Of a stretch of 33,689 bases of DNA, positions 1 through 33,689 are shown one piece after another. The stretch comes from a virus: the IMG/VR virus record IMGVR_UViG_3300033153_002255, positions 1-33,689 of that record, one strand, 5' to 3'. The position numbers and the translations under genes were made by a program. Below the pieces are notes generated by a model. It saw only the letters and a list, made by a program, of their open reading frames with translations, did not search any database and was not told where the DNA came from. Within the stretch, counting starts at the first letter, position 1, and every line of letters starts with the position of its first letter.

Positions 1-48
1 TTTAAGGTTTTGTGTACCTATAGAGACTAAAATGTCATTTTTGCGGGG

Positions 49-507
49 GTTATAGTTTTTATAGCTCCGAAACTTTATTATGAAGTTATATACTTGAAAT
101 ATTCTAGTTTCAAAAAAGACTATAAAAACTATAACATCTTTGCTAGGCACTGCCTCGGGGCATTAGGTACCTAGAGTCAATAATACTAAGTGTTACTTAC
201 AACTTACAAAAATAAAAAGACTATAAAAACTATAACGCAAACCTCGTAAAATAGGGCTATAGTGTTTATACTACCTTAAACCTCTCTAAGCTCCATTAAG
301 CACCACTAAGCACACAGAAACAACCTGAAAGATATCTGAACTATCTCAACTAACCTAACCATTTAAACAACCGACCAAAACACCCTATGCTACCAAAAGT
401 AACACGATATTTAAGGTTAAACCCACCTAAAGGACTCCGAGGGCAGAAAAGCACCACGCCCACCGCAAAAAACCGCTTAAGTTTGAGCGAACTATAAAAA
501 CTATAAC
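49..507. repeat. Four dispersed 16-bp iteron-like repeats
   Basis: The word CTATAAAAACTATAAC occurs at 120-135, 221-236 and 492-507 on the + strand and once inverted at 49-64. Each copy contains the half-repeat ACTATA twice, separated by a few A residues. Copies at 120 and 221 also share a preceding AAAAAGA, and the copy at 492 is preceded by GAA. I saw no further exact copy elsewhere in the window. Such repeats are typical of initiator-binding iterons or repressor operators; which applies is unknown. Confidence 0.75.
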
Positions 508-618
508 ATTTGACCATTCAGCCCACTTTAAGAAAGTTACGCTATAACAGTCACTATATATAAACCACCACTTACCAAACCGACTAAGTAATAGTTAGGA
601 CAGCTACACAAACCGCTT

Positions 619-649
619 TATAATAGATTAAGCTAAATTACACTATAAT
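619..649 (+). promoter_or_regulatory. Candidate early promoter -10 boxes
   Basis: Perfect TATAAT hexamers lie at 619-624 and 644-649. Neither has a good TTGACA box about 17 bases upstream. Some bacteria, including Campylobacterota, use sigma-70 promoters with a -10 box and no conserved -35, so these are plausible but weak promoter calls for the leftmost gene. Confidence 0.3.
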
Positions 650-744
650 ACATACATGAAAGAGAGATAGATTAACTAGCTAAACGACCTTTAAACTCTA
701 AGGTGTTTTTAAGCCGAGTTAGCCTATCATACTCTTAACGATTT

Positions 745-816
745 GATTAGAGACTACTAGATAACTTTGTTTGTCCTTTGTGACTACTAGTCTCTAATCA
801 GACCGTTAGGCTGAAA
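745..816 (+). promoter_or_regulatory. Structured 5' leader element, copy 1
   Basis: An 11-bp perfect inverted repeat pairs GATTAGAGACT (745-755) with AGTCTCTAATC (789-799) around a 33-base loop. It is followed directly by CAGACC, three bases, then AGGCTGAAA (799-816), 33 bases before the start codon at 850. The same arrangement with different stem bases recurs at 9893-9973. The conserved single-stranded tail with different but still paired stems suggests a functional RNA leader, processing site or protein-binding site. Confidence 0.5.
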
Positions 817-3470: not shown

Positions 3471-4034
3471 ATGTATTCACAGTTACTAAAGAGAATAGCA
3501 GAGCCTACTAAAGACTACTACGATATTATATTAGACCACAAGCTAGACATCATAAAGAGAGTCAAGGTATATGGACAGACTCAGACAGCTACAGAACTAG
3601 GTATGTCACAGACTACTTTATCCAACCACCTTAAACTACTTAATGCACTAGAACATAAAGAACACAGACGATATAACCTATATTATATAACCTTTAAGAA
3701 TGTATGTAAAATCGGTGTCTCTAGTGATATAGCTAACAGATTATATAAGTTTAGTGAGGCTATTACTATAGAGACATGGGCTATGGACGAGAAGACAGCT
3801 AAGGAAGCAGAGAGTTTCTTTAAGTTGAGACATAAGAATAAATCATTATCTGTTAAGTACCCTAATCACCCTCAAGGGGGTGCTTTAATGATAGATGATG
3901 AAGACAGACCTTTATATAAAGACATAAAGCACTATGAGATAGTTCAATGTGCTAAGGAAGTATTTATGGGTAATGTAATGACTAAAGCAGATAGAATATA
4001 CCTAGCTACTCTAGCTGAGGAGACACTATGCTAA
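3471..4034 (+). CDS. HTH plus GIY-YIG-like (T5orf172/Mug113) protein
   Basis: A 187-residue protein from the ATG at 3471, chosen because AAAGGATT precedes it and a TATAAT box overlaps the upstream ATG at 3441. Residues 36-57 form a helix-turn-helix (TATELGMSQTTLSNHLKLL). From about 68 it has the T5orf172 pattern of the GIY-YIG superfamily: LYYITFKNVCKIG (70-82), Arg90 and a downstream Glu in the helix around EAESFF. Such proteins are often selfish nucleases or phage regulators. The last bases overlap the primase-helicase start. DNA binding is likely; nuclease activity is inferred. Confidence 0.75.
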   Translation: MYSQLLKRIAEPTKDYYDIILDHKLDIIKRVKVYGQTQTATELGMSQTTLSNHLKLLNALEHKEHRRYNLYYITFKNVCKIGVSSDIANRLYKFSEAITIETWAMDEKTAKEAESFFKLRHKNKSLSVKYPNHPQGGALMIDDEDRPLYKDIKHYEIVQCAKEVFMGNVMTKADRIYLATLAEETLC

Positions 4035-6343
4035 CACCTATAACAAATATACAACCTTTCATAGACTTAGACTACCACACAGTTCCTCTTAATGGTAAAG
4101 GTATTACTAGAGACTCTAAAGGTAAGAAACATGGCTACTCATTTGCCTCTAATTGGCAGAGAACACATACAGAAGAGTTGAACGAGCTTAGTACACCTAT
4201 TGGTGGTTTACTACCTATAGAGATTGTAGCTATAGATTGTGATGATGAGGCTACCTATAGAATGTTCAAAGCTATAGACCCTACTAATGTAGCCTTTATG
4301 GATAGTATAGGTAAACAAGATAAAGATGGTAATGTTATAGAATGTGGTACTATACTGTATAAGCGTTCAGATTTATCCCCTGCTTCATTTAGAGGTACAG
4401 GCGACCTAGCGATAGACTACTTTTGTGGCTCAGGCATGGTGTTTCTACCTACTAAAGCTAACAAGACTAAGACTACATGGTTAGAGGATACAGATGGTAA
4501 CTTACATAACCACCTAGAGCAGAGAGTGGAATTTAAAGAGCTACCTTTACAAGTGGTAGATTTACTAAACTTAGTTAAGCAACAGCCCGAGCCACCTAAG
4601 ACAGTAGCCACTACGGGTATAGCTCAGAGAGGTAAAGGTTTCTTAGCTAAGGTACTAGAGAATATGGATTTAACTAAGGGAGATTACTACCCTTTAATAA
4701 CTAAGATACTTACACCTAAAGAGTATAGAAATGCTAAGTATGCTAAACAGCAACACTTACACCCGAATGACTTATCAGAGGGAGCTAGTGGACATATGTA
4801 TTTGTTTAAGATAGCTACAATACTTGCTAGTGATAATACAGTAGATAAAGACTTATTTCGTGATGTATTAAACTACCTTAACGACCTATGGGACGACCCT
4901 TATTCATCTACTAAACTAGAGAAGACTATTATCGCACCTATAATTAGTGGTAGACAGCTCAACCCACAAGGAGAACCTTACTTTGAGTATGACGAGAATT
5001 GGGACTCAGCTAGTGGCTTTAGTGTTATCACTAAGAGAGACTCTACTATACTAGAGGTGTTCTATGATGACCTAAAGATGACATACTACCTATTCGATAT
5101 AGTTGAGAGTAACATATTAGGTATCACTAAACGCACAGACCTAGTGAACTACATTAAAGGTGTAAGTGGTACGTTTGACCAAAAGGAGCTAGACAACTAT
5201 ATGCAGGTTATACATACTCATTCGCACCCTACTAGAGATTTTGGTTTCTATAATGACGACAGAGACTTTAACCTATTCAAGTCTAGCCATGCACTTAAGA
5301 TACTAAGTAACCCTGAGCTACACAAGGACAGCTACAAGATACCTGTAGAGTTTATAGCTTATATAGAGAACTTTATACCTAGTGAGGAGCAGAGAGATTA
5401 CTTCCTACAGCTACTAAGAACTAAGCTAACTACGTTTGCCTACTCCCCCGTTGTACCTTATATAATAGGTGTGCAGGGTAGTGGTAAGAATACTATAATG
5501 ACTGTACTACAGAACATCATGGGTGGCTCACAGTACGTTAAGACTGATGTAGGTGGCGAACAGTTCCTAGAGAAGTATAATAGTTGGTTAATGGACACTT
5601 ACTTTGTTCAGCTAAATGAGCTAGGAGATACTGTAACAAGTGCCTCTGAGAAGAAGAAAGCTCAAGGTATCCTAAAGAACTACACAGGCTCACAACAGTT
5701 TGAGTGTAGAGCTATGCACACAGACGCTAGAACATACCCACAAACGGCTATGTTTATTATGACTGCGAACCAAAGCCCTCTAACTATAGAGGACACAGAC
5801 AGAAGACTATACTATATAGCTACACCAAACACATTCGACCATAGCCCACAATGTATGGCTAGTGACCCCGTTACAGTGTATAACGCTATAATGGCACAGA
5901 CAGATGATATAGCTTATTGGTTAGCTACAGAATACACTAACCTACAGAAGCATGACTATGTTCGAGCTAGAGAGAGCGAGGGTAAACAAGAAATGGTATT
6001 CGGCTCACTTAATAGCTCAACTAAGATAGCATGGGCTTTATCTAATGGAGAGTTTGACTTATTGATGGAGTGGCTAATAGACCCTAGAACTATATTCAAC
6101 GCAGAGGTAATAAACAACAGAGTTACACTACCTAGATTAGCAGAGGCTTACCACCACCACAGTAACTCAGAAGACCCCGAGGGTGTAATGAAGTTGGCTA
6201 TGAAAGCTCAAGGAGTGAAAATGCACTTTGGCTCACATAATGTACCATACTATGATGTACCACACATAGGAGACTATGATGGGTGTGCTATAGAAGAGGA
6301 CGAAGACGCTGAGGACATAGAGCTAGAGGAGCTAAGAACATAA
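4028..6343 (+). CDS. Primase-helicase, Prim-Pol-like N-terminus with SF3 helicase (P4/D5 type)
   Basis: A 771-residue replication protein. The N-terminal third has a probable primase/polymerase domain with an acidic motif near IVAIDCDD. The C-terminal half is a superfamily 3 helicase: Walker A GVQGSGKN (481-488), an acidic Walker B-like region QLNELGD (528-534), sensor Asn581 in MTANQSP, and an arginine finger DRR (591-593). It should unwind the fork and prime synthesis for the family A polymerase encoded downstream. The last 17 residues form an acidic tail with IEEDEDAEDI (755-764), identical to a stretch in the SSB. Helicase identity is clear; primase activity is less certain. Confidence 0.88.
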   Translation: MLTPITNIQPFIDLDYHTVPLNGKGITRDSKGKKHGYSFASNWQRTHTEELNELSTPIGGLLPIEIVAIDCDDEATYRMFKAIDPTNVAFMDSIGKQDKDGNVIECGTILYKRSDLSPASFRGTGDLAIDYFCGSGMVFLPTKANKTKTTWLEDTDGNLHNHLEQRVEFKELPLQVVDLLNLVKQQPEPPKTVATTGIAQRGKGFLAKVLENMDLTKGDYYPLITKILTPKEYRNAKYAKQQHLHPNDLSEGASGHMYLFKIATILASDNTVDKDLFRDVLNYLNDLWDDPYSSTKLEKTIIAPIISGRQLNPQGEPYFEYDENWDSASGFSVITKRDSTILEVFYDDLKMTYYLFDIVESNILGITKRTDLVNYIKGVSGTFDQKELDNYMQVIHTHSHPTRDFGFYNDDRDFNLFKSSHALKILSNPELHKDSYKIPVEFIAYIENFIPSEEQRDYFLQLLRTKLTTFAYSPVVPYIIGVQGSGKNTIMTVLQNIMGGSQYVKTDVGGEQFLEKYNSWLMDTYFVQLNELGDTVTSASEKKKAQGILKNYTGSQQFECRAMHTDARTYPQTAMFIMTANQSPLTIEDTDRRLYYIATPNTFDHSPQCMASDPVTVYNAIMAQTDDIAYWLATEYTNLQKHDYVRARESEGKQEMVFGSLNSSTKIAWALSNGEFDLLMEWLIDPRTIFNAEVINNRVTLPRLAEAYHHHSNSEDPEGVMKLAMKAQGVKMHFGSHNVPYYDVPHIGDYDGCAIEEDEDAEDIELEELRT

Positions 6344-6645: not shown

Positions 6646-6857
6646 TAGTGGGCTGTGTCACTAGACTACCCGAGCCTCTACCCGATAGGTTCTTTAACAT
6701 GGAAATGAGAGTAGACAACTATCCAACTAAAGAGGATAGACAGGAGCTAGTGGACTTCCTACAGCCTCATATTAATGAGATAGTAGATGATGTAGTGTAT
6801 ATAATAGACACAGAGTGGAATATTAAAGTATGGGAGATAACAGATGGAAGAGGCTAG
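6633..6857 (+). CDS. Small protein between nuclease and helicase, unknown function
   Basis: A 74-residue acidic protein, no family recognised. The ATG at 6633 lies inside the end of the HNH-like gene and has no strong ribosome site; a GTG at 6648 is an alternative start. Its 3' end overlaps the following helicase gene by 14 bases. Confidence 0.55.
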   Translation: MRDIIVGCVTRLPEPLPDRFFNMEMRVDNYPTKEDRQELVDFLQPHINEIVDDVVYIIDTEWNIKVWEITDGRG

Positions 6858-8130
6858 TATATATGACCAAGAGATAGAGTTCGTGATAGGCTTTGCAGGT
6901 AGCGGTAAGAGTACAGAGTTAGCTAAACGATTTGATGGTAAAACTAGTTTAGTGCTTACACCAACTCATAAGGCTAAAGAGGTACTACTAGGCAAGGGAG
7001 TTCAGAACGTAGCTACGATACACAGCTTACTAAAGCTAGTACCTACACTAAACCAAGAAATGCGTAGAGGACAGCGTATGCAGAAACTACAGCAGATAGG
7101 CGACCTAGACCTAAAGGCTATAAAGAATATAGGTATAGACGAGTTCTCTATGATTAATGTAGAGATACTAGATATGCTCCTAGAAATGCTACCCGCTAGT
7201 TGTAAGGTTACAGTATTCGGAGACCCTTACCAACTTGAGCCAGTTGATGGAGAACTAGTTGAGCCAGAGTGCTACACTAATAACATCACAGAGCTAACTA
7301 CTCAACACAGAGCGGAAGCACCCGAAGTAGTAGAGACGTTTATGAGGTTTAAGGACTTCATCAAGGGTACAGGTCAAATGGACTTAAGGGTAGACCTACC
7401 TAATGGTACTATAAAGGGCTTCAACCCTAAGACCGATAGAGCCTTAGCGTTTACTAATGCCAAGGTACTACAGCTAAACGAGGAGATAGCCGAGGAGCTT
7501 AACCTACCTAAAGAGATAGGTATAGGAGAGGAGATTATGATTAATGGTTTAGTTGGTACATTAGTTGAGGAGCCACTATTCGAGGAGGTTAGACGTATCT
7601 ACCCTAAATGTGTCTCTAAGGGTAAGCTAATGACAGGAGATAAACTGATAGGTGCTATAGAGGATATAGAAGAGGATATGCGTAAGTACAATAATAATAT
7701 CAGCTATGCACCTTTAGGCTACATCAAGATAGACGAGGATGTTTACTCTTTCAGCTATGACCTAGACCACTACGCAGAGGCTAAACGTAGAAAGAAAGAA
7801 GTCGAGACTATACAGTTCGCTCTAATAGACGAGCATAACCTAGCTAAGGACGTTAAGCTTAGTGAGTGGTGTAAAGACAATAGACAAGCTAAGTATGTTA
7901 AGGCTAGAGGAACAGCATGGAAGCAGTACCTATTGCACCAAGGGCTACTATGGGATTTAAGAAGACCATTCGCTACAACAGTGCATAAGGCTCAAGGACA
8001 AGAGTTTAGTCGTGTATTTATTGCACAGAACGACATGAAGCAGATTATAAGAGGTAAACATTACCTAAAGTACGCAAGACTTATGTACGTTTCTTTGAGT
8101 AGAGCTATACATAAGGTGGTAATAGTATAA
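6844..8130 (+). CDS. SF1 DNA helicase, Dda/RecD2-like
   Basis: A 428-residue superfamily 1B helicase, close in size to T4 Dda. Motifs in order: Walker A GFAGSGKST (16-24, Lys22), motif Ia LTPTHKAK (about 39-46), DEFS (99-102), GDPYQLEPV with the conserved Gln, QHR, and the C-terminal TVHKAQGQEF (from 379) and YVSLSRA. Such enzymes move 5' to 3' and help replication initiation or fork restart. It sits between the SF3 primase-helicase and the SSB and probably works with both. Its stop overlaps a tiny membrane-protein gene (TAATG). Confidence 0.92.
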   Translation: MEEASIYDQEIEFVIGFAGSGKSTELAKRFDGKTSLVLTPTHKAKEVLLGKGVQNVATIHSLLKLVPTLNQEMRRGQRMQKLQQIGDLDLKAIKNIGIDEFSMINVEILDMLLEMLPASCKVTVFGDPYQLEPVDGELVEPECYTNNITELTTQHRAEAPEVVETFMRFKDFIKGTGQMDLRVDLPNGTIKGFNPKTDRALAFTNAKVLQLNEEIAEELNLPKEIGIGEEIMINGLVGTLVEEPLFEEVRRIYPKCVSKGKLMTGDKLIGAIEDIEEDMRKYNNNISYAPLGYIKIDEDVYSFSYDLDHYAEAKRRKKEVETIQFALIDEHNLAKDVKLSEWCKDNRQAKYVKARGTAWKQYLLHQGLLWDLRRPFATTVHKAQGQEFSRVFIAQNDMKQIIRGKHYLKYARLMYVSLSRAIHKVVIV

Positions 8131-8222: not shown

Positions 8223-8231
8223 GGAGATAAC

Positions 8232-8486: not shown

Positions 8487-8487
8487 T

Positions 8488-8616: not shown

Positions 8617-8628
8617 TAGGAGAACTAA

Positions 8629-9214: not shown

Positions 9215-9826
9215 ATGGCAGGATATGCAAAAGAGGCTTTCACTAGCCCCAAGGGTAACATGAAGTGGGCGTTTATTACAGGAGATGGTCGTAAAGACAA
9301 GTTCTCTATAGTAATCAGTGTACCCGAGGCAGAAGCTAAAGAGGCTATGGCATCCATAGACCTATTTTGGAAAGAGAACAAACCTAAGCAGTCTAAACCA
9401 CGTCCTAAATCTACGGGCTATAAGTTCGAGGAAGATGAAGAGACTGGAGAGCGTACTGGTATGGTATATTTCAGCTTTAGTACGGGTACATCATTCCCTA
9501 GTGGAGATAAGAAAGTTGTAAAGGTGTTCACAGCTAAAAAACCCGTTCGTGAAGTATCTCTAGGTAACAAAAAGGTAGGAGAAGGCTCTATTGGTAGAGC
9601 TATTGGCTCACTAGCTATCTTTGAGTATGAGGGTACTTATGGTACTACATTATACCTAGATGCTATCAGTCTATCTAAGTTTGTTGAATATGTTGGTGGT
9701 GTAGATGCCTCTGATATTGAAGAAGACGAGGACGCTGAGGATATCGACTTAGGCATGGAAGCTGTAGAAGCAACTGATGTTCAAGAAGAGACTCCTGAAG
9801 AACCTGCGGACGTTCCTAGAACATAA
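9215..9826 (+). CDS. Single-stranded DNA-binding protein, DUF2815/Enc34-like
   Basis: A 203-residue protein resembling the Enc34/DUF2815 family of phage ssDNA-binding proteins, which have an OB fold like T7 gp2.5. The first 160 residues are beta-rich with conserved Lys, Phe and Gly (FITGDGRKDKF, SIGRAIGSLAIFEYEGTYG). The last 40 are acidic and include IEEDEDAEDI (168-177), identical to the tail motif of the primase-helicase; both proteins end in Arg-Thr. It should coat ssDNA at the fork, and the tail probably contacts partner proteins. GGAG-type sequence precedes the ATG. It stands alone between two non-coding gaps. Confidence 0.8.
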   Translation: MAGYAKEAFTSPKGNMKWAFITGDGRKDKFSIVISVPEAEAKEAMASIDLFWKENKPKQSKPRPKSTGYKFEEDEETGERTGMVYFSFSTGTSFPSGDKKVVKVFTAKKPVREVSLGNKKVGEGSIGRAIGSLAIFEYEGTYGTTLYLDAISLSKFVEYVGGVDASDIEEDEDAEDIDLGMEAVEATDVQEETPEEPADVPRT

Positions 9827-9827
9827 G

Positions 9828-10283: not shown

Positions 10284-10284
10284 C

Positions 10285-12036
10285 ATGACAGTTAAATATG
10301 AGAGTGTTCCACTAGCATATGTAGCTAAACTAACAGACCTAACTAAACCAGTGTTCTACGATAGTGAGACACTAGGTTTATATGGAGAGGTAGTTCTAGC
10401 ACAGTTCAAGCAGGAGCATTGGGACGAGGCTTATGTAGTTGAGTACCCTAACAATCACAGACTACAAGAATTAGTTAAACAAATGTGGATAGTAGCTAAA
10501 CCTATTAGCTATGACATGGGCTTACTTGAGCTACAACCACAAAAGATTGACTGTATAGAGATAGCCGCTAAGTCAGCTATGCCACTTTCAGTGAATAAAA
10601 GAACCAAACAGAAATCATTTGCATTAGACGTTATAGCACCTCAATTCTATGTAGGTATAAATAAGAAAGATATGCAAAAGAGCTTCCTAAAGAAACGTAT
10701 GGCTATGTCAGAGGAACAGCTACACTACGGTGCATTAGATGTATATGCTCTAGAGTGGTTATGGCAACAGCCCAAGATGCAAGAGGTTATACAGAACAAC
10801 CTTAGCTATAGAGTGGACATGAAGAACCAAATGTTAGCTCTAGCGTATCAACACAATGGTATGCCAGTGAAAGCTAAGGTATGGAGTGCAGTAAATAAGA
10901 AGACAGAGCTAGAGAGAGCAGACTACCAAGACGAGCTAAACACTTTAGTTGGTACAGACCTCAACGTGAAGTCTTTTATGCAGAAACAGAAAGCGTTTCC
11001 TGAGCTACCTATAGATAAGAAGACAGGTAAGATACCTACGGGAGAACCTGCGTTCAAGAAGCTATTACTAGATGGTAAGGCTGAGCCTGATAGACTTAGA
11101 GCATACGAGTTAGTTATGAAGACAACTAAACGTAGAACTGAGCTACAAGACCTTGAGAAGTATCGTGAAAGCTATATACCTACAGAAGACCCCGTTAGGA
11201 TTAGAACATTCTACAATGTAGCGGGAGCTATAACGGGTAGATATACTTCTAAGGGTGGCGATAGAGTAGGTTATACTAATATACAGAATATCGGTAGACA
11301 CTTCAAGCATATATTTGGCTATGAAGAGGGTACACCTAGAAAGATTATATCAGCTGACTACAGCACTGCGGAGTTAATAGCAGGTTGTGAGATTATGAAG
11401 ATAGACTCTATGCGTGACCTAATCATGAACGGTATAGACCTACATAAGGCTATGGCTAGTAACATTACGGGTAAACAAATAGCTGACATCACTAAGGACG
11501 AGAGACAAGGAGCTAAGGCTGTAAACTTTGGCTACCTATTTGGACTAGGTGTTGAGAAGTTTCAAGTGTACGCATACGATACTTATGGAGTTAAACTAAC
11601 TAGAGCAGAGGCAGAAGAGTATAAAGCTATTTACTATGAAGCACACCCTGAGATAGCTAAGTACCATAAGCAGATGGGTAGAAATGTTAAGAAGTCGGGC
11701 TTCCTAGTGAAGACTGCTTTAGGCAGAGTAATACACCCAGACCGCTATGCTGATGCACTGAATATACCCGTACAAGGTACAATAGGTGAAACAACTAAGA
11801 TGGCTCAGAACTTTCTCATGGAGGACTATAGTAGTCTAATGAAAGAGGGTATGATAATTAATATGGTACACGATAGTATCATACTAGACTTCCCTGATGA
11901 ATATGCAGAGGATGCTGGAGAGGCTCTAGAGAAATCTATGAAGCTAGGGTGGACAGAGATTAGCAAGTCTAGTCTCTTTAACTACCACGACTTACCTATG
12001 GGTGTCGAGGTAGATATTGGAATGGAGTTTATGTAA
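10285..12036 (+). CDS. DNA polymerase, family A
   Basis: A 583-residue replicative polymerase. The 3'-5' proofreading domain has motif I YDSE (Asp26, Glu28), motif II around ISYDMGLLEL and motif III HYGALDVYALE. The polymerase domain has motif A ADYSTAEL (Asp358), motif B RQGAKAVNFGYLFG (Arg407, Lys411, Phe415, Phe419) and motif C MVHDS (His529, Asp530). All key catalytic residues are present. Phe419 stands where E. coli Pol I has Tyr766. It is shorter than T7 gp5 (704) and lacks a 5' nuclease domain, which is encoded separately at 12265. The partner helicase is probably the SF3 protein. Confidence 0.96.
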   Translation: MTVKYESVPLAYVAKLTDLTKPVFYDSETLGLYGEVVLAQFKQEHWDEAYVVEYPNNHRLQELVKQMWIVAKPISYDMGLLELQPQKIDCIEIAAKSAMPLSVNKRTKQKSFALDVIAPQFYVGINKKDMQKSFLKKRMAMSEEQLHYGALDVYALEWLWQQPKMQEVIQNNLSYRVDMKNQMLALAYQHNGMPVKAKVWSAVNKKTELERADYQDELNTLVGTDLNVKSFMQKQKAFPELPIDKKTGKIPTGEPAFKKLLLDGKAEPDRLRAYELVMKTTKRRTELQDLEKYRESYIPTEDPVRIRTFYNVAGAITGRYTSKGGDRVGYTNIQNIGRHFKHIFGYEEGTPRKIISADYSTAELIAGCEIMKIDSMRDLIMNGIDLHKAMASNITGKQIADITKDERQGAKAVNFGYLFGLGVEKFQVYAYDTYGVKLTRAEAEEYKAIYYEAHPEIAKYHKQMGRNVKKSGFLVKTALGRVIHPDRYADALNIPVQGTIGETTKMAQNFLMEDYSSLMKEGMIINMVHDSIILDFPDEYAEDAGEALEKSMKLGWTEISKSSLFNYHDLPMGVEVDIGMEFM

Positions 12037-12264: not shown

Positions 12265-13143
12265 ATGACTAAGACAGTATATATTGACAGTGACAGCCTA
12301 CTATATAGGTCGGCTCACATTAATAATATGAAAGACGACTGCCTAGATGAAGCTATGGCTATAGCTGTAGATGGGGATGATGATAACTACCTAGACTCAC
12401 TAGATGGTCTAGAGACAGCAGAAGACACAGATATGTTAGAGGCTATGGCTAGTACGTTTCACTCTATGGTTAAAGAGATTATGATAGCTTGTCAAGATGA
12501 TGCAGATGCTAAGGGTTATGACATTGACCCGACACCTACACTTGTATTGACTGTAAAGGGTAGCTCAGACAGATGTGACAATCTAGCTGACAACTTTAGA
12601 TACGAAGTCATGGAGAGTGTAGAAGACGAGAACGTCAAAGCCTATAAGCACTCTAGAGCAGGTATGGAAGTACCCGATGGACTACTAGAGATATACAACT
12701 ATGTTTTCGACCTACCTAACAGTGTATGTATAGGTGGAGTAGAGGCAGATGATGTTGTTGTCTATTATGGTACTCAAGGGCATATAGTTGCGGCACTAGA
12801 TAAGGATGTTCTCGGCTCACTAGAGTACGCTTACAACTTTGGTAGAATGGAGTGGGTAGAGAATACACCCGAAGATATAGCTAAATTCCCTTACTATCAG
12901 ACGCTCACAGGCGACTCTAGCGATGGTTTACGAGGTGCGTACAGAATTGGGGATAAGAAAGCAACTGCACTTCTCGAGGGGCTGACAGACCCTTTAGCTA
13001 TGTGGAAAGCTGTAGTAAAGACGTATTATATGAAAGACCAAACTCTTGAGGAGGCTATAGCTACTTTCCGTTGTGTTAGTATGCTACAGTGGACACCTGA
13101 GAATGGCTTAGTATATTGGCAACCGCCTAAAAAGGAGCAATAA
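12265..13143 (+). CDS. 5'-3' exonuclease / flap nuclease, T7 gp6-like
   Basis: A 292-residue PIN-fold nuclease. The N-terminus has YIDSDSLLYRS with metal-binding Asp8 and Asp10. Then GGVEADDVV (Glu160, Asp162, Asp163), AALDKD, and the helix-hairpin region with GDSSDG (Asp217, Asp220) and YRIGDKKATALLEG. These are the acidic clusters of the Pol I 5' nuclease/T7 gp6 family. Expected roles are removing RNA primers and degrading host DNA. An acidic insert at about 36-60 is unlike the core family. It lies directly downstream of the polymerase, supplying the missing 5' nuclease. Confidence 0.9.
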   Translation: MTKTVYIDSDSLLYRSAHINNMKDDCLDEAMAIAVDGDDDNYLDSLDGLETAEDTDMLEAMASTFHSMVKEIMIACQDDADAKGYDIDPTPTLVLTVKGSSDRCDNLADNFRYEVMESVEDENVKAYKHSRAGMEVPDGLLEIYNYVFDLPNSVCIGGVEADDVVVYYGTQGHIVAALDKDVLGSLEYAYNFGRMEWVENTPEDIAKFPYYQTLTGDSSDGLRGAYRIGDKKATALLEGLTDPLAMWKAVVKTYYMKDQTLEEAIATFRCVSMLQWTPENGLVYWQPPKKEQ

Positions 13144-13762: not shown

Positions 13763-13927
13763 ATGCCTAGACTAGAGACATGGGACGAGCCTATCAAGGG
13801 ACTACATATTAGACGCATTAAAGTGACTACTAGTAGAGCTGAGATAGTGCAACGTATTAAGGCAGTTAATCGCTTTAAGCACAAACGTATGATAGCTAAA
13901 GCGTGGAAGCGTGATGAAGCCCTATAA
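13763..13927 (+). CDS. 54-residue basic protein
   Basis: A small, strongly basic protein (MPRLETWDEP, then HIRRIKVTTS and RFKHKRMIAKAWKR) in the gap before the SNF2-like helicase, which it overlaps by 14 bases. ATG lies three bases after the previous stop with GGG nearby but no classical ribosome site. It fills an otherwise empty stretch of coding-like sequence, so it is probably real; the basic surface suggests nucleic acid contact. Confidence 0.5.
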   Translation: MPRLETWDEPIKGLHIRRIKVTTSRAEIVQRIKAVNRFKHKRMIAKAWKRDEAL

Positions 13928-15191
13928 ACACCAACTGTCTATAGCTAGTGAAGCCTACTCTGTACTACAGAAGTATGGTTTAGTCTACTTAGCTATGGAG
14001 GAAAGAACGGGTAAGACACTAACGAGTTTGGTGTTAGCTGAAATAAGTGCTTGTACTAAGGTACTTGTACTAACTAAGAAGAAAGCACTAGGAGGCTGGT
14101 ATGAAACACTTGATAGTTACTCAGAGAACCCTAGAGTGGATGGAGTCAATGGGCTTAAGCACTGGACATTGTGTGGTAGCACAGACGTTACCGTCACAAA
14201 CTACCATGGGGTGCATACAGCAGTCAAGAAGAACGGGAAGACCACATACAAGCTCAAAGTCAGCCCTAGTGATTTCGACCTTATTATCCTCGATGAACCT
14301 CATGCCTATCTTGCAGCCTACCCCAAGCTCGGTGCTATATGGAAGAGTACTAGACGAGTTAGTAAAGGGAAGCCCATCATATATCTCGGAGCAACTCCTT
14401 ATGCACAAGGGTATCAGTTGCTCTTTAATCAACTACGGCTCAGTGATTGGAGTCCCTTTAGAGGATATAAAGACTTCTATAGGTTCTTTGACTACTATGG
14501 GATATCTAACAAGATTAGAACAGACTATGGGCTACAAGAAACCTATACGAAGTGTAAGCCCTCTGTTTGGGCTAAGTGTAAGCATTTGTTTATCACATAT
14601 ACTCGTAAAGAACTCGGTTTTGAACATGAGCCAGAGGACGTTATTCACTATGTAGAGCTAACACAGTCTACTAAAGATATGTATAATGACTGTATGACTA
14701 AGCAACTGTTTCTAACAGAGCAGTTTGAGATTATGTTAGACAGCTCTATGAAACTACGGACTACTCTACATATGATAGAGGGTGGTGTAGCTAAAGAAGA
14801 TAAAGAGTATTATCAACTAGATAATGACGAGAAGATACAACAGATATTAAAGGACTTTGGCGATGACGAAAGAACTACGATTATGTATCACTACAAAGCT
14901 GAATATAGAAAACTTGCGGGAGTCTTTAAGCGAACTCAACTCCTCCAAGCTACTAGCTACGCAGAGGGAGTTGACCTTAGTGGACAAGACAACCTTATTA
15001 TCTATAGTCAAGATTTCAGCACAGCTAGACATTCTCAGCGTAGGGCTAGACAAGCTAACAAAGAACGAGATAGACCAATCAGTGTCCACTTCTACCTAGT
15101 TAAAGGTGGTATTAGTGAGCAAGTATATAAGACAGTATCTATAAATAAAACTAACTTTGTAGATAGTGTATTCATTAAGGAGAAATTATAA
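13914..15191 (+). CDS. SF2 helicase, SNF2-like
   Basis: A 425-residue superfamily 2 protein from ATG 13914 (a GTG immediately before is an alternative). Motif I MEERTGKT (28-35, Lys34), motif II DEPH (127-130), motif III LGATP, and a C-terminal RecA lobe with YAEGVDLSGQDN and QRRARQ (motif VI arginines). This layout is that of compact phage SNF2-like helicases, whose exact role (fork remodelling, recombination or displacing proteins) is unsettled. Codon use between about 14160 and 14440 differs from its surroundings, with many CTC, GTC and CCC codons, suggesting a recombined patch. Confidence 0.85.
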   Translation: MKPYKHQLSIASEAYSVLQKYGLVYLAMEERTGKTLTSLVLAEISACTKVLVLTKKKALGGWYETLDSYSENPRVDGVNGLKHWTLCGSTDVTVTNYHGVHTAVKKNGKTTYKLKVSPSDFDLIILDEPHAYLAAYPKLGAIWKSTRRVSKGKPIIYLGATPYAQGYQLLFNQLRLSDWSPFRGYKDFYRFFDYYGISNKIRTDYGLQETYTKCKPSVWAKCKHLFITYTRKELGFEHEPEDVIHYVELTQSTKDMYNDCMTKQLFLTEQFEIMLDSSMKLRTTLHMIEGGVAKEDKEYYQLDNDEKIQQILKDFGDDERTTIMYHYKAEYRKLAGVFKRTQLLQATSYAEGVDLSGQDNLIIYSQDFSTARHSQRRARQANKERDRPISVHFYLVKGGISEQVYKTVSINKTNFVDSVFIKEKL

Positions 15192-15412
15192 TGGTAGAGA
15201 ACGTAAGTAGTATAAAATGGTATGAGTGGCTATGGTTATGGCTATACGAGACTCATACAATGGTAGAGACAGAGACTGACCACGGACAGAAATTGACTGT
15301 AACCCTACACTATAAAGAAGTGAATGGGCATACCTATATAGTTAAAGAGGGCATCAAGGTGACTCCAGCTAAAGGTAAACACAATAGGAGAATAAGACGT
15401 AATGGCAACTAA
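15191..15412 (+). CDS. Small protein before DNA ligase, unknown function
   Basis: A 73-residue protein with an aromatic N-terminal stretch (WYEWLWLWLYE, about 10-20), a beta-rich middle and a basic end. No family recognised. It begins at a TAATG overlap with the SNF2-like gene and overlaps the ligase start by 11 bases. Confidence 0.65.
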   Translation: MVENVSSIKWYEWLWLWLYETHTMVETETDHGQKLTVTLHYKEVNGHTYIVKEGIKVTPAKGKHNRRIRRNGN

Positions 15413-25649: not shown

Positions 25650-25650
25650 A

Positions 25651-27624
25651 TTACTGTCCTCCTGTTGGTTGTGGTAAGCCTAGTGTAGCTGACTGTGGAC
25701 CACGTTGTTGTACTGACATAGAGGTAGCATTAGATGGCATTGTACCACCTGCAGAACCTCCTGCACCATTGTTACCACCCATAGCTCCACCCATTATAGC
25801 TTGAACGTCTCCGCCCGCCATAGCAAGTCTAGGGTCTATCTTACCTTGTTCAATACCTATAGCTGTTTCCATAAGTAGTCTAGCAATCTCTAAAGAGTGC
25901 TTAGTACCAAATTCAGATACTTGCATAGCTAGTGTTCTAAGGTATGCCGCAGGGTTAGTCTGCATCAATATCTGACCAGCTGGACCATTAACGAATGTCT
26001 CCATTAGTAACTGATTACGTTCATCTGCGTTCTGTCCATTAGAAGCTACTACCTTAATATCTACATCACTAAACTCTATTGTAGTATCAGGCTCATTGAT
26101 AGGCGACATAACTATATTGCCATCAGCGTCTTCAATAGGTTCTCCATCAGGACCTAATTCTTCTGTCCATACTAGGTTAGTAACTATTGTACCATCTTGA
26201 GTAATCTCTCCCGTAGGCATTTCGATAGGTTTGTTTATTTGAGTATAATGCTTACTATTAAGTGGGTCAGCTATTGTGAATATCTGCTCTGCTTTATAGT
26301 ATTGCTTAATCAAGTCAACTATATCTATACCTATCATTCTAAACATATACTCAACTCTATCAGTTACCATAGTCATTTGACTAGCTGATGATTGAGCCTG
26401 CATAGCTACCTTACGTCCCGAGTCACTAGCAAATGCTTGACCTAAGAAACTATCATTGATACCTAGTACCGATTTGATACGAGTCAACGCTTGGTCTATG
26501 ATTAGGTATTGTTGCTGAATATCTCTACTCATATCTTCTACCTTAATACCTTGTAGGTCTACTACAGGTATAATAGCATTGATACGACCAAATAGCTTCT
26601 TGAACTCTTCCATATCATCTACTGCATTATCCTCGACAAATGCCTTAGACGTATTAGCTAATAACTGTATCTGTAATAGAGCTTGATTAATAGCTTTCTG
26701 TGTCTCTGTAATATCTCTAAACGGACCATAGTATTCACTAATATCTGAGTGAGACATCTTAGTTATACGATAAGGAAATCTAGGTACATTAAGAGTAATC
26801 TCTTTCTTCTCTAGAATAACCTCGTCATTCCATATAACACTATATATCTTACCTTTGTGCTTGATAACTGTCTTAACTATAAGGTAGCTGTTATGGTCTT
26901 TGTATCTACCATTCTCATGACCACCTGTATATTCTCTATCATAATCTGCTTGTCTGTCTCCATCTAAGAAGTTATAGTAGTCTGTTAGACCTTTAATCTT
27001 CTCTGCACCAAATAGTTCAATAAGCTCTTCTTCACGAAGCCACTTGAATGTACTAACGTGCTTAGCGTCACTATAGTCGTCTAAACTAGACATAGGGTCA
27101 ATACGACACTGCCAACTAGGTATGTGAGATAGTTTAATCTCGTATATCTCTCTGCCGTAGTCGTCTGTTCTACCCGTAGGTATTACTTCTTCATAACATA
27201 CCATAAGACCCGTTAGGAGTCCATCAAGTTTGATACGTTTGTTTAAAGCTGAAAATGAGTTCTTATCTAGTGTATATTCAACTACATCATTCAGTAGTAA
27301 AGCTGTAGTAGCTGAACCCATATATCTAGGTTCTACATTAATCTGATTTGTAATAGTCTCCATATAACCTATCATAGAGTTAGCTAACATCTTAATAACA
27401 TTGAATGTCTCAGCTGGCTGACCATTCTCTACAAGTGTAGCTAATTGTTTTTCGGTATACTGTCTATTATGATATAGGTCAATAACCTCTTGTCCCTCTG
27501 CGATAGAGTTCCTATAAGCTTCTTCTGAAATCTTATAGGCATCTCTACACTCTTGTAGGAGTGGGTCTAGAGAAGTAGTTGTGCGGTTCCCAGGCATCTG
27601 CCCTAGTGCTGTAGGTGTAGACAT
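25651..27624 (-). CDS. Portal protein, P22-like
   Basis: A 657-residue protein with the P22-family portal layout: an N-terminal helix (LLQECRDAYKISEEAYRNSI), then EVIDLYHNRQYTEKQL, NVIKMLANSMIGYMETITNQ, the wing and clip (ISEYYGPFRDITETQKAINQ) and a long helical stem and crown. This dodecameric ring is the DNA entry and exit gate of the capsid vertex and the docking site for the ejection and tail proteins. The Gly/Asn/Gln-rich C-terminal tail is variable. It is well coupled to the ejection proteins downstream. Confidence 0.88.
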   Translation of the reverse strand: MSTPTALGQMPGNRTTTSLDPLLQECRDAYKISEEAYRNSIAEGQEVIDLYHNRQYTEKQLATLVENGQPAETFNVIKMLANSMIGYMETITNQINVEPRYMGSATTALLLNDVVEYTLDKNSFSALNKRIKLDGLLTGLMVCYEEVIPTGRTDDYGREIYEIKLSHIPSWQCRIDPMSSLDDYSDAKHVSTFKWLREEELIELFGAEKIKGLTDYYNFLDGDRQADYDREYTGGHENGRYKDHNSYLIVKTVIKHKGKIYSVIWNDEVILEKKEITLNVPRFPYRITKMSHSDISEYYGPFRDITETQKAINQALLQIQLLANTSKAFVEDNAVDDMEEFKKLFGRINAIIPVVDLQGIKVEDMSRDIQQQYLIIDQALTRIKSVLGINDSFLGQAFASDSGRKVAMQAQSSASQMTMVTDRVEYMFRMIGIDIVDLIKQYYKAEQIFTIADPLNSKHYTQINKPIEMPTGEITQDGTIVTNLVWTEELGPDGEPIEDADGNIVMSPINEPDTTIEFSDVDIKVVASNGQNADERNQLLMETFVNGPAGQILMQTNPAAYLRTLAMQVSEFGTKHSLEIARLLMETAIGIEQGKIDPRLAMAGGDVQAIMGGAMGGNNGAGGSAGGTMPSNATSMSVQQRGPQSATLGLPQPTGGQ

Positions 27625-27628
27625 ACGA

Positions 27629-28408: not shown

Positions 28409-28409
28409 A

Positions 28410-28835
28410 TTACACCTTCCTATTAAGTCGATACACTTTAGCTATTAGTGTATGTCGTTTATCTAGCACACGAATGTGCTCACTTTCTATTTCAGTAGAC
28501 CCGAGGATATCTCCATTCGGGTAGTCTTGAAATAACCTATCATAGAACTGAGCTAGTAGATTACTTTTTCTATGCTCTCTGCCTATGAATACTCTTATAC
28601 CATTATATCTATGTAGGGTAGGTGCTATAGCTTCTGTCTCGTCTCTAACGATAAAGAAGCCTCTCATAGCATCATCTACATAAACCGTATCTCTAGGGTC
28701 TGCAAGGTGTTGGACAACAGTGTCAATGTAGACACCTATAGTTTTACTGTAATGAGCTGGTGCTATTTCACTATACATAGCCATCATCATTACTGCAACT
28801 CTAGAGCTGTCATTTATATCTGCAATTCTTATCAT
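28410..28835 (-). CDS. GNAT-like acetyltransferase
   Basis: A 141-residue protein with the GNAT order: N-terminal strand MIRIADINDSSRVAVMM, central strands with GFFIVRDE, a GREHRKSNLLAQFYDRLF segment at the acetyl-CoA loop and helix position, and a final LDKRHTLIAKVYRL strand. GNAT proteins in phage virion operons are known but their targets are unclear. It lies between tail nozzle and portal genes. TATAAT appears at 28841-28846 on this strand, almost at the start codon, and is probably chance. Confidence 0.65.
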   Translation of the reverse strand: MIRIADINDSSRVAVMMMAMYSEIAPAHYSKTIGVYIDTVVQHLADPRDTVYVDDAMRGFFIVRDETEAIAPTLHRYNGIRVFIGREHRKSNLLAQFYDRLFQDYPNGDILGSTEIESEHIRVLDKRHTLIAKVYRLNRKV

Positions 28836-28869
28836 GCCCTATTATAGCGATTTACCCCTTAAACAGCCC

Positions 28870-29052
28870 TTAAACTGCGGCTTTGTTGAGTGCCTTGATT
28901 ATATGGTTCACTGCTGTTTTCACTGTTTCAAGGTCATCTGTAGGAGTCAAGAGCCTAATAGGCTCCTCTAAATCTAACTGTTGTATCTCTATGTCCTCGA
29001 CCCTAGTAGCTAACTCGCTAACTAAGGCTTCTATATCATCTAAATTTTCCAT
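28870..29052 (-). CDS. Short coiled-coil protein
   Basis: A 60-residue acidic protein, MENLDDIEALVSELATRVED then a second helix, likely a coiled coil. Its start overlaps the nozzle-like gene stop (TAATG). Small structural or chaperone-like role possible; no family recognised. Confidence 0.6.
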   Translation of the reverse strand: MENLDDIEALVSELATRVEDIEIQQLDLEEPIRLLTPTDDLETVKTAVNHIIKALNKAAV

Positions 29053-31121
29053 TATGGTAACTCTCTATTCTTCCAACTATATTGGATAGACTTAACTACA
29101 CCTTTACCTTTAATTATAAAGGCAATACTGTATGAGCTATTCTCTTTGTTCGGTATCCCTATTAGGTTTACATCATCTTTGGAGAACACTTCATCTCCTA
29201 TAACAGTTACATCATCTAGTAACTCAACGTCTTCTTCTACAGCTATAGTCCCATCACTAAATATAACCTTTATATTGAACTTACCTGTCATGTTTAGTCT
29301 TATCTTCTCATATTGTTTAAGGGTAGAGTAAGAGCCATCTATGAAAGTAGGGCTTATATACAATAGCTCAGTAAAGTCAGAACCTATGTATTTATCAGCT
29401 ACATTTAAATCAAATGCACTACACTGTAGATAATCATCACAGCCTAGAGTATCTGTACAACCTAAGAATACAACATTAGGTATAGCAGTAACTACATATA
29501 GTTCTCCATCTACAATACCTATAGAGGCTATGTTCTCATAATCAAATAGACCATAACTATAGCCTGTACCACGCTTAAAGTCTAGATAGATAATACCATC
29601 CTCTAAGTCTCCTGTACCTACCGCACCATCAGGGAATAAGGTCTCACTAGGAAACAACTCTTCTGTAGGATACAATGTAGGTTTATAACTTAGATAGTAA
29701 ACCTCATTCAGTACACAAGATGCAGTAGGCTCAATACCTATAAGAGTCTCTATCTTATCTGATGTTAAATCTATAATCTGATACCCATTAGAGCGACATA
29801 AACCTGTCTCACTCAACCATATAACATTATCTTGTAGATAACCTATACTCTTTCTAGACATACAACCTAGTATGTTAGATATTACTTTTAACCTAAAGTT
29901 CTGTGGCGAAGTACCTAATAATAGATATGTAAAACTCATACCAAATATAAGAAGACCCGCAGGTGCTTTAGCCATACCCGTTATCTTATCGGGCATAGTG
30001 AAGAAATTGTTTATATACCAAGCATCGGGATTACCTAAAGCAGAGAAATAAACGTTTTCTCCTAATGAACCGAACAGTCTACCATTCAACTCTACAAAGT
30101 CATTCATACCCTCTAAAGGTGCTCCCGAACGTAGTGTTTGTAACAGTCTACCATCTATCTCTGTATCATCTAGTGAGTCAGTATAAGGTATAGGTAGAAC
30201 AGCATCCGCACCACCCGTAGGGTCTATAGACGTTACAGTAATATTAGTATCTGTAGAGGTTACTACAAAGGTAAAGTCATTTTGTATTACACCACCTAAT
30301 ACAGACTCAAGGTATATAATACCATTAACTACTGTAGTTGTATACAACCCATCTGCTTCAATTAAGACAGCTAGTGCCTCAGCTATAATAGATGGAGTGT
30401 CTCCAGCTACAGTTGCATAAATATATGTACCCACTATAACAAGTACCTCATCACTAATCTCAAGTTTTACTTCTAGACCACCTACAGCTGTAGTACCATC
30501 TATAGTTACACTACCACTAGCAGGGTCAGCTGGTATAGCATCTAATTGCTCAACCATAGTAAACCTAGGTAGATAACCACCTATTCTATATATTCTATAG
30601 CTATCAGCTTGAGGAGGTAATGTCTCTACACCCGTAATAATTATGTCTTCTTTATCTACTGTTAGATAAGGAGGCAATGGAGATGGAGCAGACTCAACAC
30701 CTGTATCTCTCGAGTAGAATGTATACGCATACTGAAAGTCACCCGTATGCTTACCATTAGGTGTATTAGCCGCTGAAACTATAGTTGGTGCTGTAGTTGG
30801 AGTAGGTATACCTAGTGGTAGCTCTCTACCATCAAACAGTACCTTTCCTGTATGTACACCATCCGCCCAATATAGGTTACTACCTAACATAGCATTAGTT
30901 CTAAAGTTAGGGTAGAACAATATCTTAGATTGAAACTCTATAAAGTGTGGGTCTCCTGCATCCTCTAGGTGCTGTAATGTAGGCATAGACAATAGCGAAC
31001 CATTCTTTATGTTTACATTAACAACTACTCTAGACTCATTCTTAGCTACTAAGTGAGAGGCACGAACTGTGTTCATACCTGCTGTAAAGTCAATGACTTC
31101 TGTGTTTAATGAACTAGCCAT
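29052..31121 (-). CDS. Tail nozzle/hub-like protein, putative
   Basis: A 689-residue beta-rich protein. The N-terminus (IDFTAGMNTVRASHLVAKNE) and blocks such as YAYTFYSRDTGVESAPSPLP and YRIYRIGGYLPRFTMVEQLD, plus FGSLGENVYFSALGNPDAWY, resemble podovirus tail nozzle or hub (beta-propeller) proteins. It should close the tail and contact fibres. Distant from T7 gp12 and P22 gp10, so the name is by fold-like pattern. Lies between the head-fibre-like protein and a coiled-coil protein. Confidence 0.6.
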   Translation of the reverse strand: MASSLNTEVIDFTAGMNTVRASHLVAKNESRVVVNVNIKNGSLLSMPTLQHLEDAGDPHFIEFQSKILFYPNFRTNAMLGSNLYWADGVHTGKVLFDGRELPLGIPTPTTAPTIVSAANTPNGKHTGDFQYAYTFYSRDTGVESAPSPLPPYLTVDKEDIIITGVETLPPQADSYRIYRIGGYLPRFTMVEQLDAIPADPASGSVTIDGTTAVGGLEVKLEISDEVLVIVGTYIYATVAGDTPSIIAEALAVLIEADGLYTTTVVNGIIYLESVLGGVIQNDFTFVVTSTDTNITVTSIDPTGGADAVLPIPYTDSLDDTEIDGRLLQTLRSGAPLEGMNDFVELNGRLFGSLGENVYFSALGNPDAWYINNFFTMPDKITGMAKAPAGLLIFGMSFTYLLLGTSPQNFRLKVISNILGCMSRKSIGYLQDNVIWLSETGLCRSNGYQIIDLTSDKIETLIGIEPTASCVLNEVYYLSYKPTLYPTEELFPSETLFPDGAVGTGDLEDGIIYLDFKRGTGYSYGLFDYENIASIGIVDGELYVVTAIPNVVFLGCTDTLGCDDYLQCSAFDLNVADKYIGSDFTELLYISPTFIDGSYSTLKQYEKIRLNMTGKFNIKVIFSDGTIAVEEDVELLDDVTVIGDEVFSKDDVNLIGIPNKENSSYSIAFIIKGKGVVKSIQYSWKNRELP

Positions 31122-31122
31122 G

Positions 31123-31356
31123 CTACACTCCTATTTCACCACTAAACGTACCATCACCATTTTCAATAACTTTAACAGTGACACCACCTATAGTAGCTTC
31201 CGTAGCCCCTGGGAGGTCATAAGGTGCATTCTCTAATGATTGCACAGCCTCAGTAACTCTCTCTATTCCATTCTCTATATTTAATAAGTGTAGTGCATTG
31301 ATAGCAGGTGCAGTTCCGTTAACCCAACCTGTCTTCTCGTAATTCTGTAGTGCCAT
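31123..31356 (-). CDS. Head-fibre/decoration-like small protein
   Basis: A 77-residue protein with an N-terminal pattern WVNGTAPAINALHLLNIENG (seen at the base of many fibre and head-fibre proteins), a short helix, and an ATIGGVTVKV end typical of small trimerising beta units. It starts at ATG behind AAAGGATATATA. Likely a small virion attachment or decoration protein; exact site unknown. Confidence 0.55.
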   Translation of the reverse strand: MALQNYEKTGWVNGTAPAINALHLLNIENGIERVTEAVQSLENAPYDLPGATEATIGGVTVKVIENGDGTFSGEIGV

Positions 31357-31366
31357 TATATATCCT

Positions 31367-32131
31367 TTACCATATTATCTCTATTATACCTGTGCCACCT
31401 GCACCACCATAGCCACCACATTCACCTGTGCCCGTAGAGTCGTGACGACCACCGCCACCTCCTCCACCGCCAGCTGCATGACCACCTAAACCACCCACAA
31501 GACCTTGACCACCTCCAGCTCCACCTGTTCCGATAGAACTGTCAACACCTTTAAGACCATCTGTCCTAGTACCAGCTCGATAGTGTCCCGTACCACCTGC
31601 TCCACCGAAACCACCAACAGTAACATAGTTACCTTGCCAATTAGATTCTCCACCTACCTTACCTATGTAACCATCGTCTTCACTACCACAACCATGTGCT
31701 CCACCTGAGCCACCTTTACCTACCGTAAAAGGTATAGCTACGTGAGGAGTTATAGATACTATATTACTAATATTGTCAGAGCCAGCTCCACCACCTTTTC
31801 CTCCAGAGCCATCTGAACCACCCCATGTCTCTCCGCCTTCTCCACCGCCACCGCCACCGCCACCTGCGTGTACGTTGATTGTAGCTGAATAGAGGTCAGC
31901 AGGAGCAGTGAATAGGAAGTCACCATCTGCGTTCATATGAACTAGGTCAGCACCAACGGCACTACCTGTCTCTTCTACTACACCTTTGTACCCTATCTTA
32001 ATAGAGCCACCTGGTGCTTTACGAAGCCATACAACTTTACCTAATAGTGTCAGGCTCATTAGGTCTTTACCTAATAAACTGACTCTACCAGTTATTTCGT
32101 CAATGTCTTGACCTAATAGTAAGAGTGCCAT
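31367..32131 (-). CDS. Glycine-rich tail adhesin, putative
   Basis: A 254-residue protein from the TAATG start at 32131, preferred over an ATG 18 bases upstream because this junction type is usual here. The first 90 residues form an attachment-type domain; from about 95 to the end runs a polyglycine pattern (repeated GG, GGG and GGGGGG blocks with Ser/His/Thr loops), ending GTGIIEIIW. Gly-rich stretches of this sort build polyglycine-II sandwiches in phage adhesins such as T-even gp38 types, where the loops between them bind receptors. It follows the fibre gene, so likely determines host range. Confidence 0.7.
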   Translation of the reverse strand: MALLLLGQDIDEITGRVSLLGKDLMSLTLLGKVVWLRKAPGGSIKIGYKGVVEETGSAVGADLVHMNADGDFLFTAPADLYSATINVHAGGGGGGGGEGGETWGGSDGSGGKGGGAGSDNISNIVSITPHVAIPFTVGKGGSGGAHGCGSEDDGYIGKVGGESNWQGNYVTVGGFGGAGGTGHYRAGTRTDGLKGVDSSIGTGGAGGGQGLVGGLGGHAAGGGGGGGGRHDSTGTGECGGYGGAGGTGIIEIIW

Positions 32132-33689
32132 TACGCAGTCCTCTGCCACACATTGATAGTTATTCTACTACCACGTACATCAAGTGTAGCTCCACTAGTA
32201 CCCGCATTAACATTAGTCATTGTGACAGTACCCGTAGGCGTGCCAGCTGATGACGCATTTATAGACTCACCAGTACCACCTCCCCATCTAGGTGACGCAC
32301 CACCACCATCGGGTGCACTGTTAGTACCACTATACATCGGGGTCATTGTATGGGTATGGTCAGCCATAGCACTACCAGCAAATACAGCTGTATTAGAGTG
32401 ACTGTGCTCAGCTAACGTATTAAGAGGAGTATTCTCTCCACTAGCTATACCATCTTGAACTGTACCATCACCAAAACTAAGTGAAGCATCTCCTGTAATT
32501 AACTCCCATGTACCACCATATATAGTAGCAGGGTCGATAACGTCCATTCTTAATACTACTGACCCAATAGGGTGTAAAGCAGCTATAGTCGCATCAACGT
32601 ATGTTGTATCAGCTTTAAGAGCTATCGTAGCGTCTTGAGCATTGTTCTCACTATCTACATAAGTTATATCAGCTTTTAAGTCTATAGTCTGTTTATCATA
32701 TGTAAAGTCCATTAGATCAGACTCAGATACTGCCTTAGACCATATACCATAGGTAGTACCATCACCAAATCTAGTGAAGTAACCTTGGTCTGTCGTAGCT
32801 CTCTGCCCAACTAATGTTACAGCTTCAAGCTCAAACAATGAACCCCTGTTTATAACTAGTTGCTCTACAGATATATTAGTACCTGCTGAAGCTGGAGGTA
32901 AATCACCTAACATTCCATCTACTACACCTAAGTGAATACCCATACCAACTACATTATTTATATCAGTAATTGCGTTAGCTGATACTCTCATAACTTGGTC
33001 TGCACTTGATATACCTAATGGAGAGGTAAAGTCACCTATACTTTTTGTAGTGAATACAGCTTTATTAGCCGTACTAGCATTAACAAACTCAGCTTGAGTC
33101 ATATCTCCCGCACCTATATCTACAACCTTTAAATCTACATAATCTTTAGTAGCAGGGTGCATAGGTAAACTAGGTGTATATGCTGTGTGCTCAACTACAG
33201 TATCTAGTGTTGTAGCTATATCAGCCTTAGTATCAATAGCAGGCTGTACAGCCCCACTAAACCAAGCTAACATATACTCAAAACTCATAGTCTCTGTTGC
33301 ATTAGGTAGTGCAGGAAATATAGGGCTAGACACATTGAATACTTGAGCTGAGTTACCTGATATATTAGCTTTAGTAGCTAATGCTGCAGTCACTTGAACC
33401 GTATCGGGTTTTTCAGCTAGACCATCATCTACATAACCTCTGTTAGCCGCATCCGTTATAGCTATTGGTACATTAACACCAAACACTTGTAAAGGATTAC
33501 CAGCTAATTGTGCATACCTAGTATCTGCCTCTCCGATTGTAGTCTTCTCTTCTATAGCCTCAGCTATAGAGAGTGACTCACTATAAGGTAGATTGGTTGC
33601 ATTAACCTGAGTACCTGTCCTAGTACCACTACTCGTTCCCATACCTACATCAATGTCTTCTATTAATGCAGGTTCTTTTTTTATTCTAG
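32131..33689 (-). CDS. Tail fibre with gp12-like collar end, partial at right edge
   Basis: The coding frame is open to the right edge; an internal ATG at 33642 would give 503 residues, but the frame continues another 15 codons with no stop, so the true N-terminus is probably missing. Repeated fibre units appear (NPLQVFGVNVPI and NSAQVFNVSSPI; KADITYVD and KADTTYVD). The C-terminus has the collar/short tail fibre pattern: HPIGSVVLRMD, YGGTWELITG, then EHSHS and DHTHT (HxH metal sites as in T4 gp12) and the end ITINVWQRTA. It should be a trimeric receptor-binding fibre. The only GATC of the window lies here. Confidence 0.75.
   Translation of the reverse strand, partial: RIKKEPALIEDIDVGMGTSSGTRTGTQVNATNLPYSESLSIAEAIEEKTTIGEADTRYAQLAGNPLQVFGVNVPIAITDAANRGYVDDGLAEKPDTVQVTAALATKANISGNSAQVFNVSSPIFPALPNATETMSFEYMLAWFSGAVQPAIDTKADIATTLDTVVEHTAYTPSLPMHPATKDYVDLKVVDIGAGDMTQAEFVNASTANKAVFTTKSIGDFTSPLGISSADQVMRVSANAITDINNVVGMGIHLGVVDGMLGDLPPASAGTNISVEQLVINRGSLFELEAVTLVGQRATTDQGYFTRFGDGTTYGIWSKAVSESDLMDFTYDKQTIDLKADITYVDSENNAQDATIALKADTTYVDATIAALHPIGSVVLRMDVIDPATIYGGTWELITGDASLSFGDGTVQDGIASGENTPLNTLAEHSHSNTAVFAGSAMADHTHTMTPMYSGTNSAPDGGGASPRWGGGTGESINASSAGTPTGTVTMTNVNAGTSGATLDVRGSRITINVWQRTA

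Follow-up and report, generated by a model that had tools for sequence, protein, structure and literature searches.

The window, by which we mean the whole stretch of 33,689 nucleotides analysed here (IMG/VR virus record IMGVR_UViG_3300033153_002255), represents part of the genome of a KF-1-like podovirus, and its principal features are as follows.

1-850 and about 18990-19650: intergenic stretches
4028..6343, + strand: primase/helicase of the KF-1 group (phrog_19785, DNA polymerase/primase)
6343-6645: HNH endonuclease (phrog_3377), encoded between primase and helicase; many phages carry this common type
6844..8130, + strand: Dda-like helicase (phrog_325)
9215..9826, + strand: Gp2.5-like single-strand binding protein (phrog_112)
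10285..12036, + strand: family A DNA polymerase, 79% identical to the protein of the nearest relative
12265..13143, + strand: exonuclease (phrog_107)
13911..15191, + strand: phage helicase with a ResIII-type domain
15402..16289, + strand: ATP-dependent DNA ligase (phrog_114)
25651..27624, - strand: portal protein, the query that found 80 relatives
29052..31121, - strand: internal virion protein (phrog_511)
32131..33642, - strand: tail protein whose C-terminal region resembles Vibrio phage tail fibres
32715..32718: the sole GATC of the window, within the tail-protein gene

To judge from related genomes, which measure 40-44 kb, this fragment appears to lack about 10 kb. The phage is probably lytic. 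No lysogeny gene was found among the window proteins scanned, and a search for phage tRNAs returned none. The intergenic stretch at 1-850 carries repeated 'actataaaaactataa'-like words, a candidate regulatory or origin sequence, and a VRR-NUC-like endonuclease is encoded by the window as well. The gene at 13911..15191 was considered as a restriction enzyme on account of its ResIII domain and rejected, being a phage helicase. No C5-MTase was found in the window, itself a fragment, or in its nearest relative, and no N6/N4 methyltransferase of PF01555 was found in 19 relatives, so that there is no sign of self-methylation of these kinds.

The primase/helicase, the family A polymerase, and the portal protein are homologous over most of their length to those of the KF-1-like podoviruses, and the same replication module and portal are found in Edwardsiella phage KF-1 (Kafunavirus), Vibrio phage VPMS1, Pseudoalteromonas phage PH1, and Dickeya phage Amaethon, with protein identities of 33-35% for the primase/helicase, 30-32% for the polymerase, and 41-42% for the portal. 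Membership of the genus Kafunavirus was rejected, as megablast of window positions 1-24000 against 50,697 phage records gave no match and the key proteins are 30-42% identical; judged by its sequence, the window is thus placed as a distant relative of KF-1 and not as a Kafunavirus. The nearest relative that we found, IMGVR_UViG_3300033153_001096 (L003-L005; 43,347 bp), aligns with the window, the larger aligned pieces showing a nucleotide identity of about 71-77%; its open reading frames were identified with a simple longest-frame rule. Full-length relatives carry terminal direct repeats (114 bp in L003-L005 and in L096-L098, 127 bp in L102-L104 and in L108-L110, and 91 bp in L111-L113); these resemble overlaps left by the assembly of genomes that are circular or circularly permuted.

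The earlier note on this DNA had reported that the four G/C-only palindromic tetramers appear absent, and exact counts over all 33,689 bp bear this out, with zero copies each of GGCC, CCGG, GCGC, and CGCG. How surprising this is depends, as do all counts of depletion given here, on the null model used. At the G+C content of the window (39.3%), independent bases predict 50 copies of each; a dinucleotide model predicts 45, 18, 23, and 9.5 (in the order given above), and a second-order Markov model 33, 18, 15, and 6, with GGCC and CGCG additionally checked against shuffles. The figure of some forty copies of each tetramer put forward earlier was therefore an overestimate, 6-33 being realistic, and the reason for the lower expectation is that CpG is depleted in the window (0.43). 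By the same token, the absence of CGCG taken alone is marginal, only 6-9.5 copies being expected.

These figures invite the simplest alternative, namely that composition or codon bias, through low G+C, CpG depletion, and codon preference, made the tetramers rare without any selection on sites, and the CpG depletion, the G+C of 39%, and the expected counts below the first estimate all lean that way. Pooling tells against it: the four palindromes were seen 0 times against 72 expected, far from the Markov expectation, whereas the twelve non-palindromic G/C tetramers show no equal deficit but a slight excess (319 observed against 257 expected), so that the earlier contention that such words are frequent and that low G+C is no explanation holds. 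The same alternative fares no better within genes, where synonymous codons were shuffled with the proteins and codon usage preserved. In coding DNA these shuffles predict 22.8 copies of GGCC, 8.4 of CCGG, 17.5 of GCGC, and 8.4 of CGCG (z = -6.2, -3.5, -5.1, and -3.3, respectively), and for GATC, to which we return below, 84 copies (z = -11), that is, still 8-84 copies for each purged tetramer.

Moreover, codon choice tracks the adjacent base at precisely those positions where a site would arise. Before a C, aspartate is encoded by GAC 105 times and by GAT once, while elsewhere the counts are 214 and 377; isoleucine ATC is used at 0 of 144 positions that follow a codon ending in G as against 80 of 528 elsewhere; and glycine GGC is used at 0 of 74 positions before a C as against 106 of 700 elsewhere. 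Selection acts on sites, not on codons, and it is through the choice among synonymous codons that the sites are avoided, in other words lost without change of the encoded proteins. On the Markov and synonymous-shuffle nulls we accordingly rejected a cause in low G+C or in codon bias, and consider such an origin extremely improbable. Codon usage in the window is in itself odd for 39% G+C, with GAG used more than GAA, AAG slightly more than AAA, and ATA, CTA, and AGA preferred; the preferences for GAG over GAA and for ATA, AGA, and CTA are thermophile-like and would suit a thermophilic host. Among the dinucleotides, TA, AG, and CT are over-represented and AA/TT under-represented.

The depletion reaches beyond G/C-only words. 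The most extreme purged word of the window is GATC, present once against 68-119 copies expected (dinucleotide shuffles gave 85 +/- 9). Among the 5-mer classes that contain none of the five purged tetramers, a screen brought out exactly three that are strongly depleted: GAWTC (GAATC/GATTC), with 1 observed against 27 expected; CCTTC/GAAGG, with 4 against 53; and GCWGC (GCAGC/GCTGC), with 8 against 55. Because the paired words are reverse complements of each other, GCWGC is indistinguishable here from GCAGC, and GAWTC from a one-strand GATTC site. We take these words to be type II specificities, GAWTC that of TfiI, CCTTC that of HpyAV, and GCWGC that of TseI/ApeKI, or alternatively, as GCAGC, that of BbvI. 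The grouping of the purged words as G/C-only was thus mistaken, since the set also takes in GATC, GAWTC, CCTTC, and GCWGC; what unites its members is that they are restriction sites, not their composition.

Other low words were weighed and set aside. AATT (60 observed against 107 expected in the window) is significant under both nulls, and was dropped as a restriction signature because it accompanies a general depletion of A/T runs (AAAA, AAAT). Such runs, AAAT and AATT among them, are strongly depleted relative to synonymous shuffles in coding genes, AAAA being seen 135 times against 443 on both strands, and the same depletion is present in the nearest relative; restriction is an unlikely cause of the deficit in AATT and AAAA. 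CATG and CTAG are low by the second-order Markov model, but under the codon null CATG stands at expectation and CTAG above it, and neither was retained as an additional avoided word.

Most informative of all is how the avoided words change from member to member of a single clade. In the nearest relative GATC, GGCC, and GCGC all stand at zero, as in the window apart from its single GATC, while, unlike in the window, CCGG (5 copies) and CGCG (2 copies) are only weakly reduced and the avoidance of GAWTC (23 observed/36 expected) and CCTTC (23/71) is weaker or absent. Within the eight-member clade to which both belong, GGCC is purged in the window, the nearest relative, L012, and L020, and not in L018, L019, or L022. 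In observed/expected counts, L012 has GATC 8/112, GGCC 1/32, CCGG 1/14, and GAWTC 3/37; L019 has GATC 5/107, CCGG 0/21, and GCGC 1/11, with GGCC at 94/67; L020 has GATC 5/115, GGCC 0/24, CATG 9/126, GAWTC 0/41, and CCWGG 2/29; L018 has CTAG 65/227; and L022 has CTAG 43/177 and GATC 20/155. The strong avoidance of CTAG in L102-L104 (65/227) and L111-L113 (43/177) is not shared by the window, and the record IMGVR_UViG_3300028030_000002 (L108-L110) has a purged set that is larger than that of the window and different from it, comprising GATC, GGCC, GCGC, CCGG, CATG (9/126), GAWTC (0/41), and CCWGG (2/29).

When 45 genomes or fragments of the family, each at least 15 kb long, were compared, purging affected GATC in 27, CCGG in 4, GGCC in 4, and GCGC in 3, so that only the loss of GATC is common in the wider family; by the criterion of this comparison the largest purged sets are those of L020 (five words) and the window (four). 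In KF-1, VPMS1, PH1, and Amaethon the counts of GGCC, GCGC, and CGCG are normal, unlike in the window; VPMS1 and PH1 strongly avoid GATC only (3/84 and 3/81), and CCGG is partly reduced in PH1. The avoided set, then, varies by lineage and is therefore not a fixed property of the family, and selection by changing host repertoires fits this pattern.

Two further alternatives have to be measured against the turnover. One is that a phage endonuclease, for example the HNH enzyme at 6343-6645, cuts host DNA and that the phage genome lacks the words in question for its own protection. The window does encode HNH and VRR-NUC-like endonucleases, but to account for at least seven unrelated words several nucleases would be needed, HNH proteins like this one are common in phages, and an avoided set that turns over among relatives is hard to reconcile with this idea, which we regard as extremely unlikely. 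The other is a coincidence of single-word pressures unrelated to restriction, such as Dam/SeqA/mismatch-repair effects on GATC or avoidance of CRISPR PAMs. Here the loss of GATC in 27 of the 45 family genomes or fragments, Vibrio and Pseudoalteromonas phages included (3/84 and 3/81), is in its favour, as is the PAM depletion that has been reported in phages (PMC4246573); such pressures nevertheless leave the joint loss of GGCC, GCGC, CCGG, GAWTC, CCTTC, and GCWGC, together with the turnover, unexplained, and we hold them to be very unlikely.

The best explanation, to which we assign a probability of roughly 0.86, is purging driven by type II restriction enzymes of the host, the repertoire of which turns over. 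Specific recognition words are strongly under-represented against composition-matched nulls, and the selection by restriction proposed at the outset draws support from a depletion that is word-specific and synonymous, from the agreement of the words with known type II specificities, from the turnover of the set, and from the relatives with gammaproteobacterial hosts, in which GGCC and GCGC are not lost. Telling against it are the marginal status of CGCG, the merely slight reduction of CCGG and CGCG in the nearest relative, and the part of the depletion (AATT, AAAA) that restriction is unlikely to have caused. We infer that the selection comes from host restriction enzymes with these specificities: a phage genome with fewer sites would survive entry more often, sites would be lost one by one, mainly through synonymous substitution, and the endpoint would be a genome that can hardly be cut at these words. 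The near-loss of at least seven words probably lets the phage slip past host defences.

As to the host, Campylobacterota were chosen for the search because the portal protein has weak matches to Helicobacter prophages (about 25% identity) and to a Sulfurovaceae contig (26%), and they are a plausible host phylum. CRISPR-spacer links sought between window positions 4001-24000 and 397 Campylobacterota genomes, and between positions 14001-33689 and one of particular interest (G308), gave short, imperfect, or chance-level matches only; assignment through prophages or binned contigs was rejected, as these yielded distant relatives only and the bins were taxonomically inconsistent; and homologues of the tail and HNH proteins carry no clear host signal. 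Several of the words are avoided in this phylum too: of 54 Campylobacterota slices or sets, 27 have an observed/expected ratio (O/E) below 0.3 for GGCC, 16 for GATC, and 13 for GCGC, with ACGT (21) and GTAC (11), neither of which the window avoids, also falling below this level. G308 is the genome that best matches the profile of the phage, with O/E of 0.06 for GATC, 0.09 for GGCC, 0.09 for GCGC, and 0.08 for CCGG, and with ACGT (0.77) and GTAC (0.97) close to normal, as they are in the window.

This genome (L172, L208-L217, L234-L241) contains 11 C5-MTase matches, one of which, an M.HhaI-like enzyme (E 2.5e-117), directly adjoins a restriction enzyme of the HinP1I family (PF11463, E 1.8e-53), a pair that by homology would constitute a GCGC system; HinP1I, NgoFVII, and BglII-like restriction enzymes adjoin C5-MTase matches in G308. 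Across 298 Campylobacterota genomes, restriction-enzyme families above the cut-off comprise DpnII (70), HinP1I (25), HaeIII (11), and HpaII (9). In the comparison with restriction genes of candidate hosts that the earlier note had proposed, families for GATC, GCGC, GGCC, and CCGG are present in the Campylobacterota. G308 does not avoid CGCG, GAWTC, or CCTTC, which counts against the restriction explanation. It shows that a bacterium with such an avoidance profile exists, and serves as an example and not as the host; a host group with many type II systems, for which this one genome provides an existence proof, is plausible.

It is possible, although we put it forward only tentatively, that the hosts met by this lineage together possess at least seven or eight type II specificities, with which it keeps up through genome-wide purging and nothing else. 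In that event the turnover of words would allow the restriction repertoire of the host, and perhaps the host, to be read from the genome of an uncultivated phage. Since the purging looks extreme and the avoided set changes between close relatives, the words that such a phage avoids may serve to document which restriction enzymes it has encountered, and may offer a testable clue to its host.

That non-temperate dsDNA phages avoid orthodox type II sites is established (Rusinov et al. 2018, PMC6286503): elimination of sites is complete or nearly so in about one-tenth of viral genomes, and under-representation is significant in about one-quarter (PMC6286503). The window resembles those phages in the near-complete elimination of orthodox type II sites from a dsDNA phage genome, and differs from them in that at least seven words have been purged together. 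With no copy of the four G/C palindromes, a single GATC, and three 5-base words depleted, it looks like an extreme case: the loss of restriction sites is an already known anti-restriction strategy, and what is notable is the number of words purged together.
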